Source: a bacterium
GTDB lineage: Bacteria; Myxococcota_A; Bradymonadia; UBA7976; UBA1532
DNA: 64,000 nt
Reading direction: 5' to 3'
Assembly (NCBI GenBank): GCA_030426085.1
Contig: JAUHYW010000054.1
Coordinates: forward strand, 1-64,000
The position numbers were made by a program, and so were the translations under genes. Below the pieces are notes generated by a model. The model saw only the letters and a list, made by a program, of their open reading frames with translations, was not told the DNA's origin and searched no databases. Positions 59,387 through 64,000 of this stretch are shown in pieces. Every line of letters begins with the position of its first letter. The stretch's first letter is position 1.

Positions 59387-59444
59387 AGCCGGCCCGTAGA
59401 CGGTACGGGTTGCGCACCCAGTGATGAGAACATACAAGGACGTC

Positions 59445-60746
59445 ATGCAGGACGACGTGTTCGGGGGACGGACGGCGGCGCTCGCCGCCGAGGCCGTGGC
59501 GCGCTGCCACGCGCTGGGGCGGTTCAGCGAGATCGAGGACGGGGTCTATCGCCCCTTCGGCCGGCAGTCGCTCGAAGACGCCGCGCGGCTGGTCGAGCGC
59601 TGGATGGCCGACGCGGGGCTGGACGTGCGCCGGGACGCCTTCGGCACCGTCGTGGGGCGCCGCCGCGGGGTGGGGCCGGGTCGACGCACGCTCTACGTCG
59701 GCTCACACCTCGACACCGTGCCCGACGGCGGGCTGTACGATGGCGCGCTGGGGGTCGTGCTGCCCATCGTGCTGTGCAAGGCGCTCGCCGGGCGCGCGCT
59801 GCCGTTCGACCTCTGCGTCCTGGGCTTCCTGGCCGAAGAGGGCTGCCGCTTCGGGGCCGGCTGCATGAGCGCGCGGTCGCTCACCGGGCGCCTCGATCGG
59901 GCCCTGCTCGAGCGGACCGCGCCCGACGGCACGACGCTGGCCGAGGCGGTGCGGTTCCACGGCGGGCAGCCCGAGCGGGTCGGGCAGGCCGCCGACTTCG
60001 CCCGCGCGCTGGGCTACGTCGAGGTGCACATCGAGCAGGCGTCGGTGCTCGATCGGCGGCGGCACTCCGTGGGCGTGGTCGAGGGCATCGTGGGCCAGTC
60101 CCGCCTGAGCCTGACCTTCACCGGGCAGGCCGATCACGCCGGTACGACCGAGATGGGCGACCGCCGCGACGCGCTGTGCGCCGCGGCCGACTTCGTGCTC
60201 GCGGTCGAGGAGCTCGCCAAAGCCGACCGCGAGCTCTTCGCCACCGTCGGCCGCCTCGACGTCTCGCCCAACGCCAACAATGTCATCCCGGGGGCGGTCT
60301 CGCTGTCGCTCGACGTGCGCCACCCCCACGACGTCGCCCGCGAGGTGGCGCTGTCGGCGCTCGCCGAAGCGGCCCGGGCGGGGGGCGGGCGGCGGGGGGT
60401 CTCGGTGGGCTGGCGGATCGACGGGCAGCGGGCGGCCGCGACGTGTGACGCCGGCCTGACGCGGCTGCTCGTCGAGGCCGTCCGCGCGGCGGGGGTGCCC
60501 GAGGTCCGGCTGCCGAGCCGGGCGGGCCACGACGCGATGGTGATGGCCCGGGTGATGCCCATGGCGATGTTGTTCGTGCGCAGCCCGGGCGGGTTGAGCC
60601 ATCATCCCGACGAGCGACTCGACGTGGCCGACGTGGCCGTGGCGGTCGACGTGATGGGCCGCTTCTTCGCGCGGCTCGCCCGGCAGGAGGCCGCCCGGGT
60701 GCCCGGCGCGCCGGCCTCGCCCTACGAGGAGACCCGCGCCCCATGA
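59445..60746 (+). CDS. M20-family amidohydrolase (N-carbamoyl-amino-acid hydrolase/allantoate amidohydrolase type)
   Basis: Protein of 433 aa; ATG 59445 is chosen for the AAGGA four bases upstream (ATG 59424 is possible). Zinc-site motifs of the Zn-dependent carbamoylase family are present: GSHLDTVPDGG with H88 and D90, a further Asp in YDGALGV, E131/E132 in AEEGCRFGAG, His195 in YVEVHIEQ and a late His in GLSHHPDE. The dimerisation domain contains TGQADHAGTT and SPNANNVIPG. It would hydrolyse an N-carbamoyl or ureido amide bond. Its stop overlaps the next gene (ATGA), so it is the first gene of an operon with the ATP-grasp-like and aminoacylase genes. Confidence 0.88.
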   Translation: MQDDVFGGRTAALAAEAVARCHALGRFSEIEDGVYRPFGRQSLEDAARLVERWMADAGLDVRRDAFGTVVGRRRGVGPGRRTLYVGSHLDTVPDGGLYDGALGVVLPIVLCKALAGRALPFDLCVLGFLAEEGCRFGAGCMSARSLTGRLDRALLERTAPDGTTLAEAVRFHGGQPERVGQAADFARALGYVEVHIEQASVLDRRRHSVGVVEGIVGQSRLSLTFTGQADHAGTTEMGDRRDALCAAADFVLAVEELAKADRELFATVGRLDVSPNANNVIPGAVSLSLDVRHPHDVAREVALSALAEAARAGGGRRGVSVGWRIDGQRAAATCDAGLTRLLVEAVRAAGVPEVRLPSRAGHDAMVMARVMPMAMLFVRSPGGLSHHPDERLDVADVAVAVDVMGRFFARLARQEAARVPGAPASPYEETRAP

Positions 60747-62428
60747 AGATCGCCGCGACCGCCCGCCCCGCGCACCCCGCCACGGGCCTCGAAGAGTATT
60801 GGACGGTGCGCGCCGCCGACGAGGCTCTGGTCTGGGATGGCTTCTGCACCGGCCCGTCGGTGCTCGAGCCGGCGGCGGTCGAAGGCCTGTGCCGCCGGCT
60901 CCTGGGCATCTCGCCGGCCGAATTGCCCGCGGCGAGCGCGGCCGGCCTCGCGCCGCCGGTGAGCCCGGCGTCGCCCCGGGTGTTCCTGCACTCCGACACC
61001 CCCGAGCTGAGGGGCTTCGAGGGCGACCTCGACGCCGTACGCAGCGGCCGCCGACCGCTGGACTTCACCGCCTACAAAGAGGCCCGCTCGCCCTATCTGG
61101 CCCGGCCGGGCGACCTCGCGGTGGGCCGCATCCGCCCCTGGCGCGACAACTGCGTCGCCGCCGGGGTGCCCATGCTGCCGGTGCCCGATCTGGGGCACTA
61201 CTACCTCTCGCACGCGCTGCTGGTGCTCGCCGAGCGTCACCTGCGGGCGCCGGTGCCCGCCATCACGGCCCTGATCCGGCGCTTCGCGGAGGCGCCGGAC
61301 ACCGTGGCCGCGCTGTACGCGTTCGAGCCCGAGATCCAGATCGTCCTCCTGTGGCTGCGGGCGCAGGCCGGGCTGGACGTGCTGCGCACCGACGCCAACC
61401 CGCCCGACGTCGCGGCCGCCTGGAACCGCAAGGATGTGCTGCACCCGACGGTCGACGTCGCGCTCGACATGCCCCCGCCGGCCGACGCCGACGGCCCGGC
61501 GTGGCTCGCCCGCGAGGCGGCGCGCTCGGGGCTGGGGCAGGCGTTGGGGGCCGCCACGCCGGTCTTCCCCGGCTACACGATCCCCCGAGCGGGCGTCGAG
61601 CGGGGCCGGTTCGTACGGCAGGTGCTGCGCGCGGGCGAGCTGCTGCGCGCCCGACATGGGCTCGATCGGGGCTGCCTCAAGCCCTCCGAGGCCGGCGACG
61701 GGGCCCGGATCACCCTCGACGTCCCGCTGGCCGACGCCGCCCGGCTGACCGCCCTGGCCGAGCAGGCGTGGGGCAACGGCGACGCCTACCTGCTCGAGCC
61801 GCATGTGCGCTACCTCGGGAGCACGCTCGGCGGGGAGCCCATCGCCGCGACGCCCTCGGCCCACATCCGAGCCGGCGCGCTGGCCCCGGGGATGACGCTC
61901 CAGTTCACCCGGGGCACCTCGTGGAAGGGCAACATCTACATCGACGCCGACTCGGCGCCGGGGGTCGGGCTCGACCGGGCGGTCTACCGCGAGGCCCGGG
62001 CGGCCGTCGAGGCGCTGACCGCAGCGTTCGCCGCCGCCGGTCAGGGGCTGGTGACCGCCGGCTATGACGTGGGTATCGGGCGCCTCGGCGGCCCGGTCTG
62101 GGGCGAGCGGGTGCTGCTCGGGGTGCAGGATCTCAACGTGTCGTTCACCGGCGCCGAGTGCCTGCGGGCCTACATGGATCGCCACGCCGACGGCCCGTGC
62201 CCCGCCGCCTCGCGGGTGGTGCGGCCGGCGCCGCACGCCACCGTGCCGGTGCTGGCGAAGGCGCTGAGCGCGCTCGCGCCGACCGCGTGCGAGGCCGACG
62301 TGGTGGCCGCCGTGCCCGACCGGTGGGGCATGATCGCGCTGCGCGGCGCCGACGCGCGGGACGCCGCCGAGCGGGTATTGAACCTGCGCGACGCCCTGCT
62401 CGACCGCGGCCTGCTGCTGCCCCTCTGA
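60743..62428 (+). CDS. Unrecognised protein with ATP-grasp-like C-terminal half
   Basis: Protein of 561 aa, no signal peptide or membrane helix. I do not recognise the family. The N-terminal 270 residues are mixed alpha/beta with several conserved-looking segments (YKEARSPYL, GRIRPWRDN). The C-terminal half has the order of elements of an ATP-grasp ligase: Lys313 in LKPSEAGDG, E352 in LLEPHV, a long beta region with FTRGTSWKGNIYID, and D463-L464-N465 in VQDLNVSFTG where such enzymes usually carry ExN; the following Arg is missing. If so, it would couple a carboxylate to an amine using ATP. The start overlaps the M20 gene stop (ATGA) and the next gene starts 4 bp after its stop. Confidence 0.6.
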   Translation: MKIAATARPAHPATGLEEYWTVRAADEALVWDGFCTGPSVLEPAAVEGLCRRLLGISPAELPAASAAGLAPPVSPASPRVFLHSDTPELRGFEGDLDAVRSGRRPLDFTAYKEARSPYLARPGDLAVGRIRPWRDNCVAAGVPMLPVPDLGHYYLSHALLVLAERHLRAPVPAITALIRRFAEAPDTVAALYAFEPEIQIVLLWLRAQAGLDVLRTDANPPDVAAAWNRKDVLHPTVDVALDMPPPADADGPAWLAREAARSGLGQALGAATPVFPGYTIPRAGVERGRFVRQVLRAGELLRARHGLDRGCLKPSEAGDGARITLDVPLADAARLTALAEQAWGNGDAYLLEPHVRYLGSTLGGEPIAATPSAHIRAGALAPGMTLQFTRGTSWKGNIYIDADSAPGVGLDRAVYREARAAVEALTAAFAAAGQGLVTAGYDVGIGRLGGPVWGERVLLGVQDLNVSFTGAECLRAYMDRHADGPCPAASRVVRPAPHATVPVLAKALSALAPTACEADVVAAVPDRWGMIALRGADARDAAERVLNLRDALLDRGLLLPL

Positions 62429-62432
62429 CCGG

Positions 62433-64000
62433 GTGGCGGCGTTCGACCTGATCCTGCGCGGCGGCGCGCTCTACGACGGCAGCGGCGCCCCGGCGGCCCG
62501 GGGCGACCTCGCGATCCGCGGCGACCGCATCGCGGCGGTCGGCCGGGTCGAAGGCCGGGGGGCGGTCGAGGTCGACGTCGGCGGGCTCGCGGTGGCCCCC
62601 GGCTTCGTCAACATGATGTCGTGGGCCCACGACGCGCTGATGCACGACGGCCGCGGCGAGAGCGATCTGCGGCAGGGCGTCACCCTCGAAGTGATGGGCG
62701 AAGGCTGGTCGATGGGGCCCCTCGACGACCGCCTCGCGGCCTATGTCGAGGCGCGGCAGACGACCCTGCGCCACCCCATCACATGGCGCACGCTGGATGG
62801 CTTCCTGCGGTGCCTGACCGACCGCGGCGTGGCGTGCAACGTGACCTCGTTCGTCGGCGCCGGCCTGCTGCGGGCGCTGGTGGTGGGCTTCGACGACCGC
62901 CCGCCGACCTCCGTCGAGCAGGATCGGATGTGCGCGCTGGCCGCCGACGCCATGCGGGCCGGCGCGGTGGGGGTGTCATCGGCGCTGGCCTACGCCCCCG
63001 ACTGCTATGCCACCGTCGACGAACTCACCGCGCTGGCCCGGGTCGCCGCGGCCCACGGCGGGGCCTATGCCAGCCATGTCAGGGACGAGGGCGCCGGCCT
63101 GCTGCCGGCGCTCGACGAGTTCGTCGGCATCGTCGAGCGCGCCGGCGTCCGGGGCGAAGTCTATCACTTGAAGGCATCCGGGCGGCTCGACTGGCACCGG
63201 CTGGAGGCGGCCATCACGCTGCTCGAAGCGGCCCGCGCCCGGGGGCTGCCCATCACCGCCGACGCCTACCCCTACGCCGCCTCGTCGAGCGGGCTCGACT
63301 GGCTCATGCCCGGCTGGGTGCGCGAGGGGGGCTACGAGGCGTGGTTCGCCCGGCTGGCGGAGCCGAGCGTCCGCCGGCGGGCCATCGCCGAGATGAAGCG
63401 GGACGCGCCGGACAACCCCTGGCGCCAGCTCCGCTCGGCCGACGAGATCGTGCTGACCCGCTTCCGCCGCCCCGAGCTGCGGAGGTACGCCGGGCGGACG
63501 CTGGCCGACGTCGCCGCCGAGCGGGGGGTGGATCCGTTCGCGGCGGCGATCGACCTCGTCGTCGACGATCGCAGCCGCATCGGCGCGATGTTCTTCTCGA
63601 TGTCATCGGAGAACGTGCGCCGGAAGCTGGCGCTGCCCTGGCTCGCCCTGTGCTCCGACGCCGCCGCGCTCGCACCCCGGCCCCCGTTCCTCGACGACCA
63701 CCCCCACCCCCGGGCGTATGGCAGCTTCGCCCGCTTCCTGGGTCACTGGGTGCGGGACGAGGGCGTGACATCGCTGGCCGATGCCATCCGCCGGATCACG
63801 GCGCTGCCCGCCGGCGTGCTCGGCCTCACCGACCGGGGCCGGCTGGCGCCGGGCTGCGCAGCGGACGTGGCGGTCTTCGACCCGGCGGCCATCCGGGACG
63901 TCGCGACCTACGCCGAGCCCCATCGCTTCGCCGAAGGCATGGTGCATGTGCTGGTCAACGGCGTCTTCGCGCTGCGGGGCGGCGCGGTGACCCCGGCCCG
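62433..64000 (+). CDS. N-acyl-D-amino-acid deacylase (D-aminoacylase) family protein, 3' end outside window
   Basis: Open from GTG 62433 to the window end (522 codons without a stop). The N-terminal RGGALYDGSGAPAARGDLAIRGDRIAAVG and PGFVNMMSWAHDALMHDGRGESDLRQGVT follow the amidohydrolase superfamily D-aminoacylase branch. Metal and substrate residues of the group are visible: ASHVRDEG, H245-L-K247 in HLKASG, and a late TDRGRLAPGCAADVAVFDP near the end. The usual first HxH after PGF is replaced by MMSWAHD, as in a known subgroup. It would release an acyl group from an N-acyl (often D-) amino acid. It is 4 bp after the ATP-grasp-like gene, so co-transcribed. Confidence 0.85.
   Translation, partial: MAAFDLILRGGALYDGSGAPAARGDLAIRGDRIAAVGRVEGRGAVEVDVGGLAVAPGFVNMMSWAHDALMHDGRGESDLRQGVTLEVMGEGWSMGPLDDRLAAYVEARQTTLRHPITWRTLDGFLRCLTDRGVACNVTSFVGAGLLRALVVGFDDRPPTSVEQDRMCALAADAMRAGAVGVSSALAYAPDCYATVDELTALARVAAAHGGAYASHVRDEGAGLLPALDEFVGIVERAGVRGEVYHLKASGRLDWHRLEAAITLLEAARARGLPITADAYPYAASSSGLDWLMPGWVREGGYEAWFARLAEPSVRRRAIAEMKRDAPDNPWRQLRSADEIVLTRFRRPELRRYAGRTLADVAAERGVDPFAAAIDLVVDDRSRIGAMFFSMSSENVRRKLALPWLALCSDAAALAPRPPFLDDHPHPRAYGSFARFLGHWVRDEGVTSLADAIRRITALPAGVLGLTDRGRLAPGCAADVAVFDPAAIRDVATYAEPHRFAEGMVHVLVNGVFALRGGAVTPA

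Follow-up and report, generated by a model that had tools for sequence, protein, structure and literature searches.

A predicted three-gene operon encoding an allantoate amidohydrolase-clade M20 enzyme, an orphan protein and a D-aminoacylase-family amidohydrolase that may dismantle a ureido or N-acyl compound

Three translationally coupled genes of a 10.1-Mb, high-GC bacterial genome encode an M20 amidohydrolase, an orphan protein of 561 residues and an amidohydrolase of the D-aminoacylase family. We tentatively propose that their products, probably cytosolic, dismantle a small nitrogen-rich molecule bearing two N-carbamoyl (ureido) or N-acyl groups, a reading to which we assign a probability of roughly 0.35. 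The trio is real; we stop short of describing it as a new pathway. Gene layout, family and clade assignments, retained and lost residues and the lack of relatives of the middle protein are observed here; that the enzymes share a substrate, that they break it down and whatever chemistry the middle protein may have are inferred. By this proposal, the M20 enzyme, as a diverged descendant of allantoate amidohydrolase, would decarbamoylate a ureido acid that is not allantoate. The group taken off by the second amidohydrolase would be acyl or carbamoyl and adjoin a D-configured centre; Glu90, His215 and His245 would hold the single zinc of the enzyme, and Asp409 would serve as the catalytic acid/base. 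Each hydrolase would act on its own N-carbamoyl or N-acyl group of a single molecule, as YgeY and UacY do in reductive urate degradation, and the middle protein may add another step to the processing of that molecule, perhaps an ATP-dependent ligation or activation. If the trio forms one pathway, an allantoate amidohydrolase would have been recruited to a new substrate, in the company of a D-aminoacylase-type enzyme with a rebuilt zinc site and a protein of no known family.

Gene organization

The window analyzed here covers the initial 64 kb of a contig of 71.6 kb, and the trio lies at the end of the window (Table 1). The size and gene content of the genome suggest a myxobacterium-like organism. 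The ATG of the middle gene overlaps the stop codon of the M20 gene as ATGA, and the GTG start of the amidohydrolase gene follows the middle gene after a 4-bp gap. An in-frame GTG at 59421 is a possible earlier start of the M20 gene. The amidohydrolase reading frame is uncut by the contig and ends just beyond the window, to encode 533 residues (L009 3433-5034). When GC content was calculated by codon position, all three genes displayed the pattern of real genes (0.94-0.95 at the third position and 0.53-0.55 at the second). A long reading frame antisense to the middle gene was found to have the mirror pattern (0.94/0.56/0.78), which indicates that the sense frame is the true middle gene; a frame error or an antisense gene as the source of the middle protein was ruled out by this approach. 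Thus, the three-gene unit joined through an ATGA overlap and a 4-bp gap, as proposed in the preliminary description, is borne out by reading-frame coordinates and codon GC, and this tight coupling favors a breakdown of one molecule by the three products. A divergent small gene lies upstream of the trio. Downstream, a weak hairpin resembles a terminator, and an unrelated toxin-like gene (eCIS_core/Ntox3) follows about 80 bp further on; the operon therefore appears to be limited to three genes.

Table 1. Genes, residues and motifs of the trio, with positions in the window.
Feature	Position	Strand	Basis or remark
M20 amidohydrolase gene	59445..60746	+	ATG start, 433 aa; allantoate amidohydrolase clade by NCBIfam scores and tree
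M20 Ala199	60039..60041	+	clade-invariant HIEQG changed to HIEQA
M20 Arg359	60519..60521	+	clade-invariant SGAGHD changed to SRAGHD
Middle gene, orphan 561-aa protein	60743..62428	+	reading frame and codon GC pattern
Middle protein, GCLKPSEAGDGARITLDV (residues 310-327)	61670..61723	+	ATP-grasp-like lysine strand by eye; without statistical support
Middle protein, TAGYDVGIG...VLLGVQDLNVSFTG (residues 438-470)	62054..62152	+	ATP-grasp-like metal-binding strands by eye; without statistical support
Amidohydrolase gene, D-aminoacylase family, "SWA" subfamily	62433..64000, to about 64034 on the contig	+	GTG start; Amidohydro_3, PDB 1m7j
Amidohydrolase M62-S63-W64	62616..62624	+	replaces HxH of D-aminoacylases (alignment)
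Amidohydrolase Glu90 (GEGWSMGP)	62700..62702	+	replaces zinc-binding Cys of GNCG (alignments)
Amidohydrolase His215	63075..63077	+	metal ligand kept (alignments)
Amidohydrolase His245	63165..63167	+	metal ligand kept (alignments)
Amidohydrolase Asp409	63657..63659	+	catalytic Asp kept (alignments)

The M20 enzyme

Assignment of the first enzyme to the M20 family is backed by matches in Pfam, NCBIfam and the PDB. The enzyme scored 281 bits against the hydantoinase/carbamoylase family model TIGR01879, above the cut-off of 204, and its best specific model was that of allantoate amidohydrolase, NF006775, at 449.4 bits, a score that did not reach the cut-off of 479. By maximum-likelihood analysis, the enzyme was placed with support of 100 within a 40-row clade of allantoate amidohydrolases, in which 38 of the 39 other members adjoin allantoin or urate genes. 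With a length of 0.94 the branch is long, and the sister grouping carries a flag for possible long-branch joining; membership in the 40-row clade is independent of that grouping. The surroundings of related M20 genes were also scored in the fetched DNA for four allantoin-pathway markers: allantoinase, HIUase, OHCU decarboxylase and (S)-ureidoglycine aminohydrolase. At least one marker was detected at 59 of the 80 nearest M20 loci in GTDB genomes, compared to 0 of 36 control loci. When the markers were checked, allantoinase and (S)-ureidoglycine aminohydrolase exceeded the NCBI cut-offs, as did an M20 enzyme of the clade (L027) on NF006775. Taken together, the tree and the neighbors narrow what had been termed a carbamoylase-like M20 protein to the allantoate amidohydrolase clade; its description as an M20 hydrolase of amides or ureides stands, while that as a generic carbamoylase does not.

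Every metal and catalytic residue of the family is retained (GSHLDT, DG, EEG, HIEQ, HAGTT, NVIP, DVR, GHD and SHHPDE), and identity to members encoded in allantoin operons is 48%. By contrast to allantoate amidohydrolase (AllC/AAH), the enzyme departs from the clade at 8 of its 72 conserved positions, some of which fall in the substrate-side motifs HIEQG and SGAGHD, and also displays a TTEM variant. Unlike 38 of the 39 other members of the clade, it has no adjoining allantoin genes, and no allantoinase or ureidoglycine gene was found on the contig. Changes at clade-conserved, substrate-side positions with the catalytic motifs intact are consistent with a shifted substrate, and the protein is read, from its residues, as a probable ureido-acid amidohydrolase of altered specificity. 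These changes, and the tie of the clade to allantoin and urate genes, are in favor of the proposed breakdown.

The same data bear on an alternative in which the M20 enzyme is the ordinary allantoate amidohydrolase of the genome, relocated from the other purine genes, with two unrelated passengers as neighbors. Such a relocation is in agreement with the clade placement and with the best equivalog being NF006775, 30 bits under its cut-off; at E ≤ 1e-20 the genome has no other match of this M20 family, and the plasmid relatives of the enzyme, where annotated, are named allantoate amidohydrolase. However, all three genes are translationally coupled, the branch is long and clade-invariant residues are altered, and none of the four markers was detected in the readable 2.0 of 10.1 Mb (19% of the genome). 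We consider this relocation unlikely.

The middle protein

Searches of Pfam, PHROGs, PADLOC, the PDB, plasmids and phages returned zero matches to the middle protein, and NCBIfam gave a chance-level match only (E 0.14). No credible relatives were found in its own class (57 genomes), in a sample of its own phylum (284 genomes), in 30 genomes carrying relatives of the M20 enzyme or among GTDB and viral contigs scanned by pattern. Samples of Actinomycetota (396 genomes), Pseudomonadota (398) and Verrucomicrobiota (175) likewise gave none that was credible, a blank result that, in a foreign phylum, shows little without a positive control. A weak match within the phylum (L011, E 2e-4) was found to be antisense to another gene by its reading frames, and two further weak matches (L012, E 6e-4; L147, E 3e-3) were taken as chance. 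The middle protein is an orphan within the libraries and genome sets searched.

The protein had initially been described as ATP-grasp-like, a designation that no library or profile test upheld. By eye, its motifs follow ATP-grasp order (NRK 228-230, LKP 312-314, LLEP 350-353, YD 441-442 and QDLN 462-465) and it is roughly collinear with PF18604-type proteins found within its own phylum, which are PGM1-like ATP-grasp peptide ligases of similar length. By contrast to this likeness, no significant profile similarity to these ligases was detected. ATP-grasp matches were absent from Pfam, NCBIfam and the PDB even when sub-segments were searched, and the protein did not rise above control proteins against a 27-sequence PGM1-like profile or an ATP-grasp_4 profile; known ATP-grasp proteins did exceed the controls in one of our own-profile tests. 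Similarity to PGM1-like or ATP-grasp_4 proteins was non-significant by HMMER, hhalign and our own profile alignment against controls. AlphaFold2 models of the whole protein and of residues 222-495, generated without relatives, had pLDDT values of 34-36, and a Foldseek search with these low-confidence models found nothing (best E 0.3). The structure prediction that had been suggested as a check was uninformative, and the ligase nature of the protein is a lead, not a result. Separately, when 112 genomes of the phylum were sampled, 26 were found to encode PF18604 (PreAtp-grasp, PGM1-like) proteins of about 475 residues (L149-L160 and related loci); none was found in the genome of the window.

These observations are the ground for a second alternative, likewise unlikely, in which the trio is a biosynthetic unit: the middle protein would be a far-diverged PGM1-like ATP-grasp amide ligase that joins two building blocks, and the hydrolases would prepare or edit them. 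The by-eye motif order and collinearity point in this direction, and the order of secondary structure in the low-confidence models fits the alternation of an ATP-grasp core. Weighing against it are the blank library searches, the profile scores level with controls and the low structure confidence with its blank Foldseek search. Also doubtful is the possibility that the middle protein founds a very distant new family of ATP-dependent ligases (or of other enzymes) and makes or breaks an undescribed ureido- or N-acyl-D-amino-acid metabolite together with a Glu/His/His enzyme of D-aminoacylase type and an allantoate amidohydrolase put to new use.

The D-aminoacylase-family amidohydrolase

The third protein was assigned to its family by Pfam (Amidohydro_3, 7e-16), NCBIfam and PDB matches and is homologous over its full length to the D-aminoacylase of PDB 1m7j (E 6e-66). 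The D-aminoacylases fall into subtype V of the amidohydrolases and bind zinc through Cys/His/His, with an Asp for catalysis (PMC12017989). When aligned with the D-aminoacylase / N-acyl-D-amino-acid deacylase structures 1m7j and 3gip, the protein was found to retain the two His ligands and the catalytic Asp; by contrast, the HxH motif is gone and Glu stands in place of the zinc-binding Cys. The earlier designation as D-aminoacylase-like thus holds at the family level but not for the zinc-site Cys and HxH, which are lost. A Glu/His/His metal site is itself a known amidohydrolase subtype (PMC12017989), and this, with the retained His/His/Asp, favors the proposed breakdown. The family matches also agree with the initial view of two amide or ureide hydrolases flanking a third protein.

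The replacement of Cys by Glu, with His/His/Asp kept, was observed in all five compared members of a separate "SWA" subfamily. The four nearest compared relatives (46-51% identity) share the pattern including Glu90, and one of the four has LSHA instead of SWA. That the pattern is common to the compared relatives argues for a natural subfamily with a predicted Glu/His/His site, of which the amidohydrolase is a member and not a dead copy. The subfamily is spread over Sphingomonadales, Actinomycetota and the phylum of the window. No description of its substrate or activity was found in the literature, and it occurs in several phyla, so assays of the enzyme described here would label more than one locus. 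Across D-aminoacylase-type enzymes, the Cys site was found in three variants (GNCG, GQDG and GEG). At subfamily loci L107, L108, L109, L205 and L206, HxH is mostly xSW and the zinc-binding Cys is replaced by Glu, and an N-terminal signal or lipoprotein-like sequence is present in some members of the Glu-for-Cys subfamily. A single further D-aminoacylase-family gene was found in the genome (L288 12496-14217; contig C114, about 52.5-54.2 kb), and its product is 27% identical to the amidohydrolase.

A third alternative, that D-amino-acid peptides, from the cell wall or elsewhere, are recycled by the operon with the amidohydrolase as leading enzyme, is improbable: relatives of the amidohydrolase do neighbor genes for peptidase C69, a serine hydrolase, DUF1611 or an amino-acid permease and, on one archaeal plasmid, adjoin dipeptide epimerase and NlpC/P60 genes, but the M20 partner is from a ureide clade and the operon has neither peptidase nor permease. 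An M20 gene was found beside none of the amidohydrolase relatives inspected.

Comparison with reductive urate degradation and conservation of the trio

The preliminary description knew of no described pathway with this set of genes. This has to be qualified, as a pair of an M20 ureidohydrolase and a D-aminoacylase-type enzyme is described: in reductive urate degradation, one ureido group each is cut by YgeY (M20) and, in C. difficile, by the D-aminoacylase homologue UacY (PMC12507026). An M20 gene was also found to adjoin a D-aminoacylase-type gene at four loci in other genomes of the phylum, with the middle gene absent. Both the described pair, acting on two ureido groups of one molecule, and the recurrence of the gene pairing favor breakdown as the function of the trio. 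YgfK-, YgeX- and SsnA-like genes were present at two of the four loci (L143 3987-11159; L144 3250-10443), with the YgeX-like gene identified as PALP; the third (L146 22-11086) had SsnA only and the fourth, on a short contig, is partial (L145). The D-aminoacylase-type genes of these urate-type clusters belong to the GQDG subfamily. Inspection by eye revealed no HyuA or YgeW gene in the clusters, whose layout may therefore vary on that of YgeY/UacY.

The trio resembles YgeY and UacY in pairing genes for an M20 and an Amidohydro_3 enzyme, each of which would be expected to break one ureido-type bond. It differs in that no SsnA, YgfK, HyuA or YgeX gene adjoins it (searches of the window and contig for SsnA-, YgfK- or YgeX-like genes gave no match) and in that an extra orphan gene separates the two enzymes. 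The enzymes at the four phylum loci are likewise from other subfamilies than those of the window, and the amidohydrolase is 35% identical to the urate-cluster subfamily, with GEG instead of GQDG. Since the window pair comes from other subfamilies (about 35% identity), it may be considered an analogue of YgeY/UacY at best.

Conservation of the neighborhood was examined at the 80 nearest M20 loci of GTDB genomes. None carried the middle gene, and none had an adjoining full-length amidohydrolase of the SWA kind; the few weak partial amidohydrolase matches were mostly at allantoinase or SsnA-like genes. Because the middle gene is without detectable relatives and the two enzymes have their nearest relatives in unrelated contexts, the three genes are not neighbors in any relative found, an outcome that the preliminary description had named as one that would refute its proposal. 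As far as could be tested, the neighborhood is not conserved. The breakdown reading thus has against it that no relative has the same trio, that no other urate or allantoin genes are alongside and that the amidohydrolase falls outside the urate-cluster subfamily, nearest to stand-alone, partly secreted enzymes; nothing links the middle protein to breakdown.

Genes downstream of the operon

Just past the window, a gene at 64118-67294 of the contig (L009 5118-8294) encodes a 1058-residue protein with eCIS_core and Ntox3 domains. It is followed by a gene for a 180-residue protein, a candidate immunity protein. From 67920 to the end of the contig (L009 8920-12630) extends a gene for a protein of more than 1230 residues with a STAND-like architecture, in which a nitrilase-type N-terminus (by eye) is followed by weak NACHT, pentapeptide-repeat and WD40 regions.
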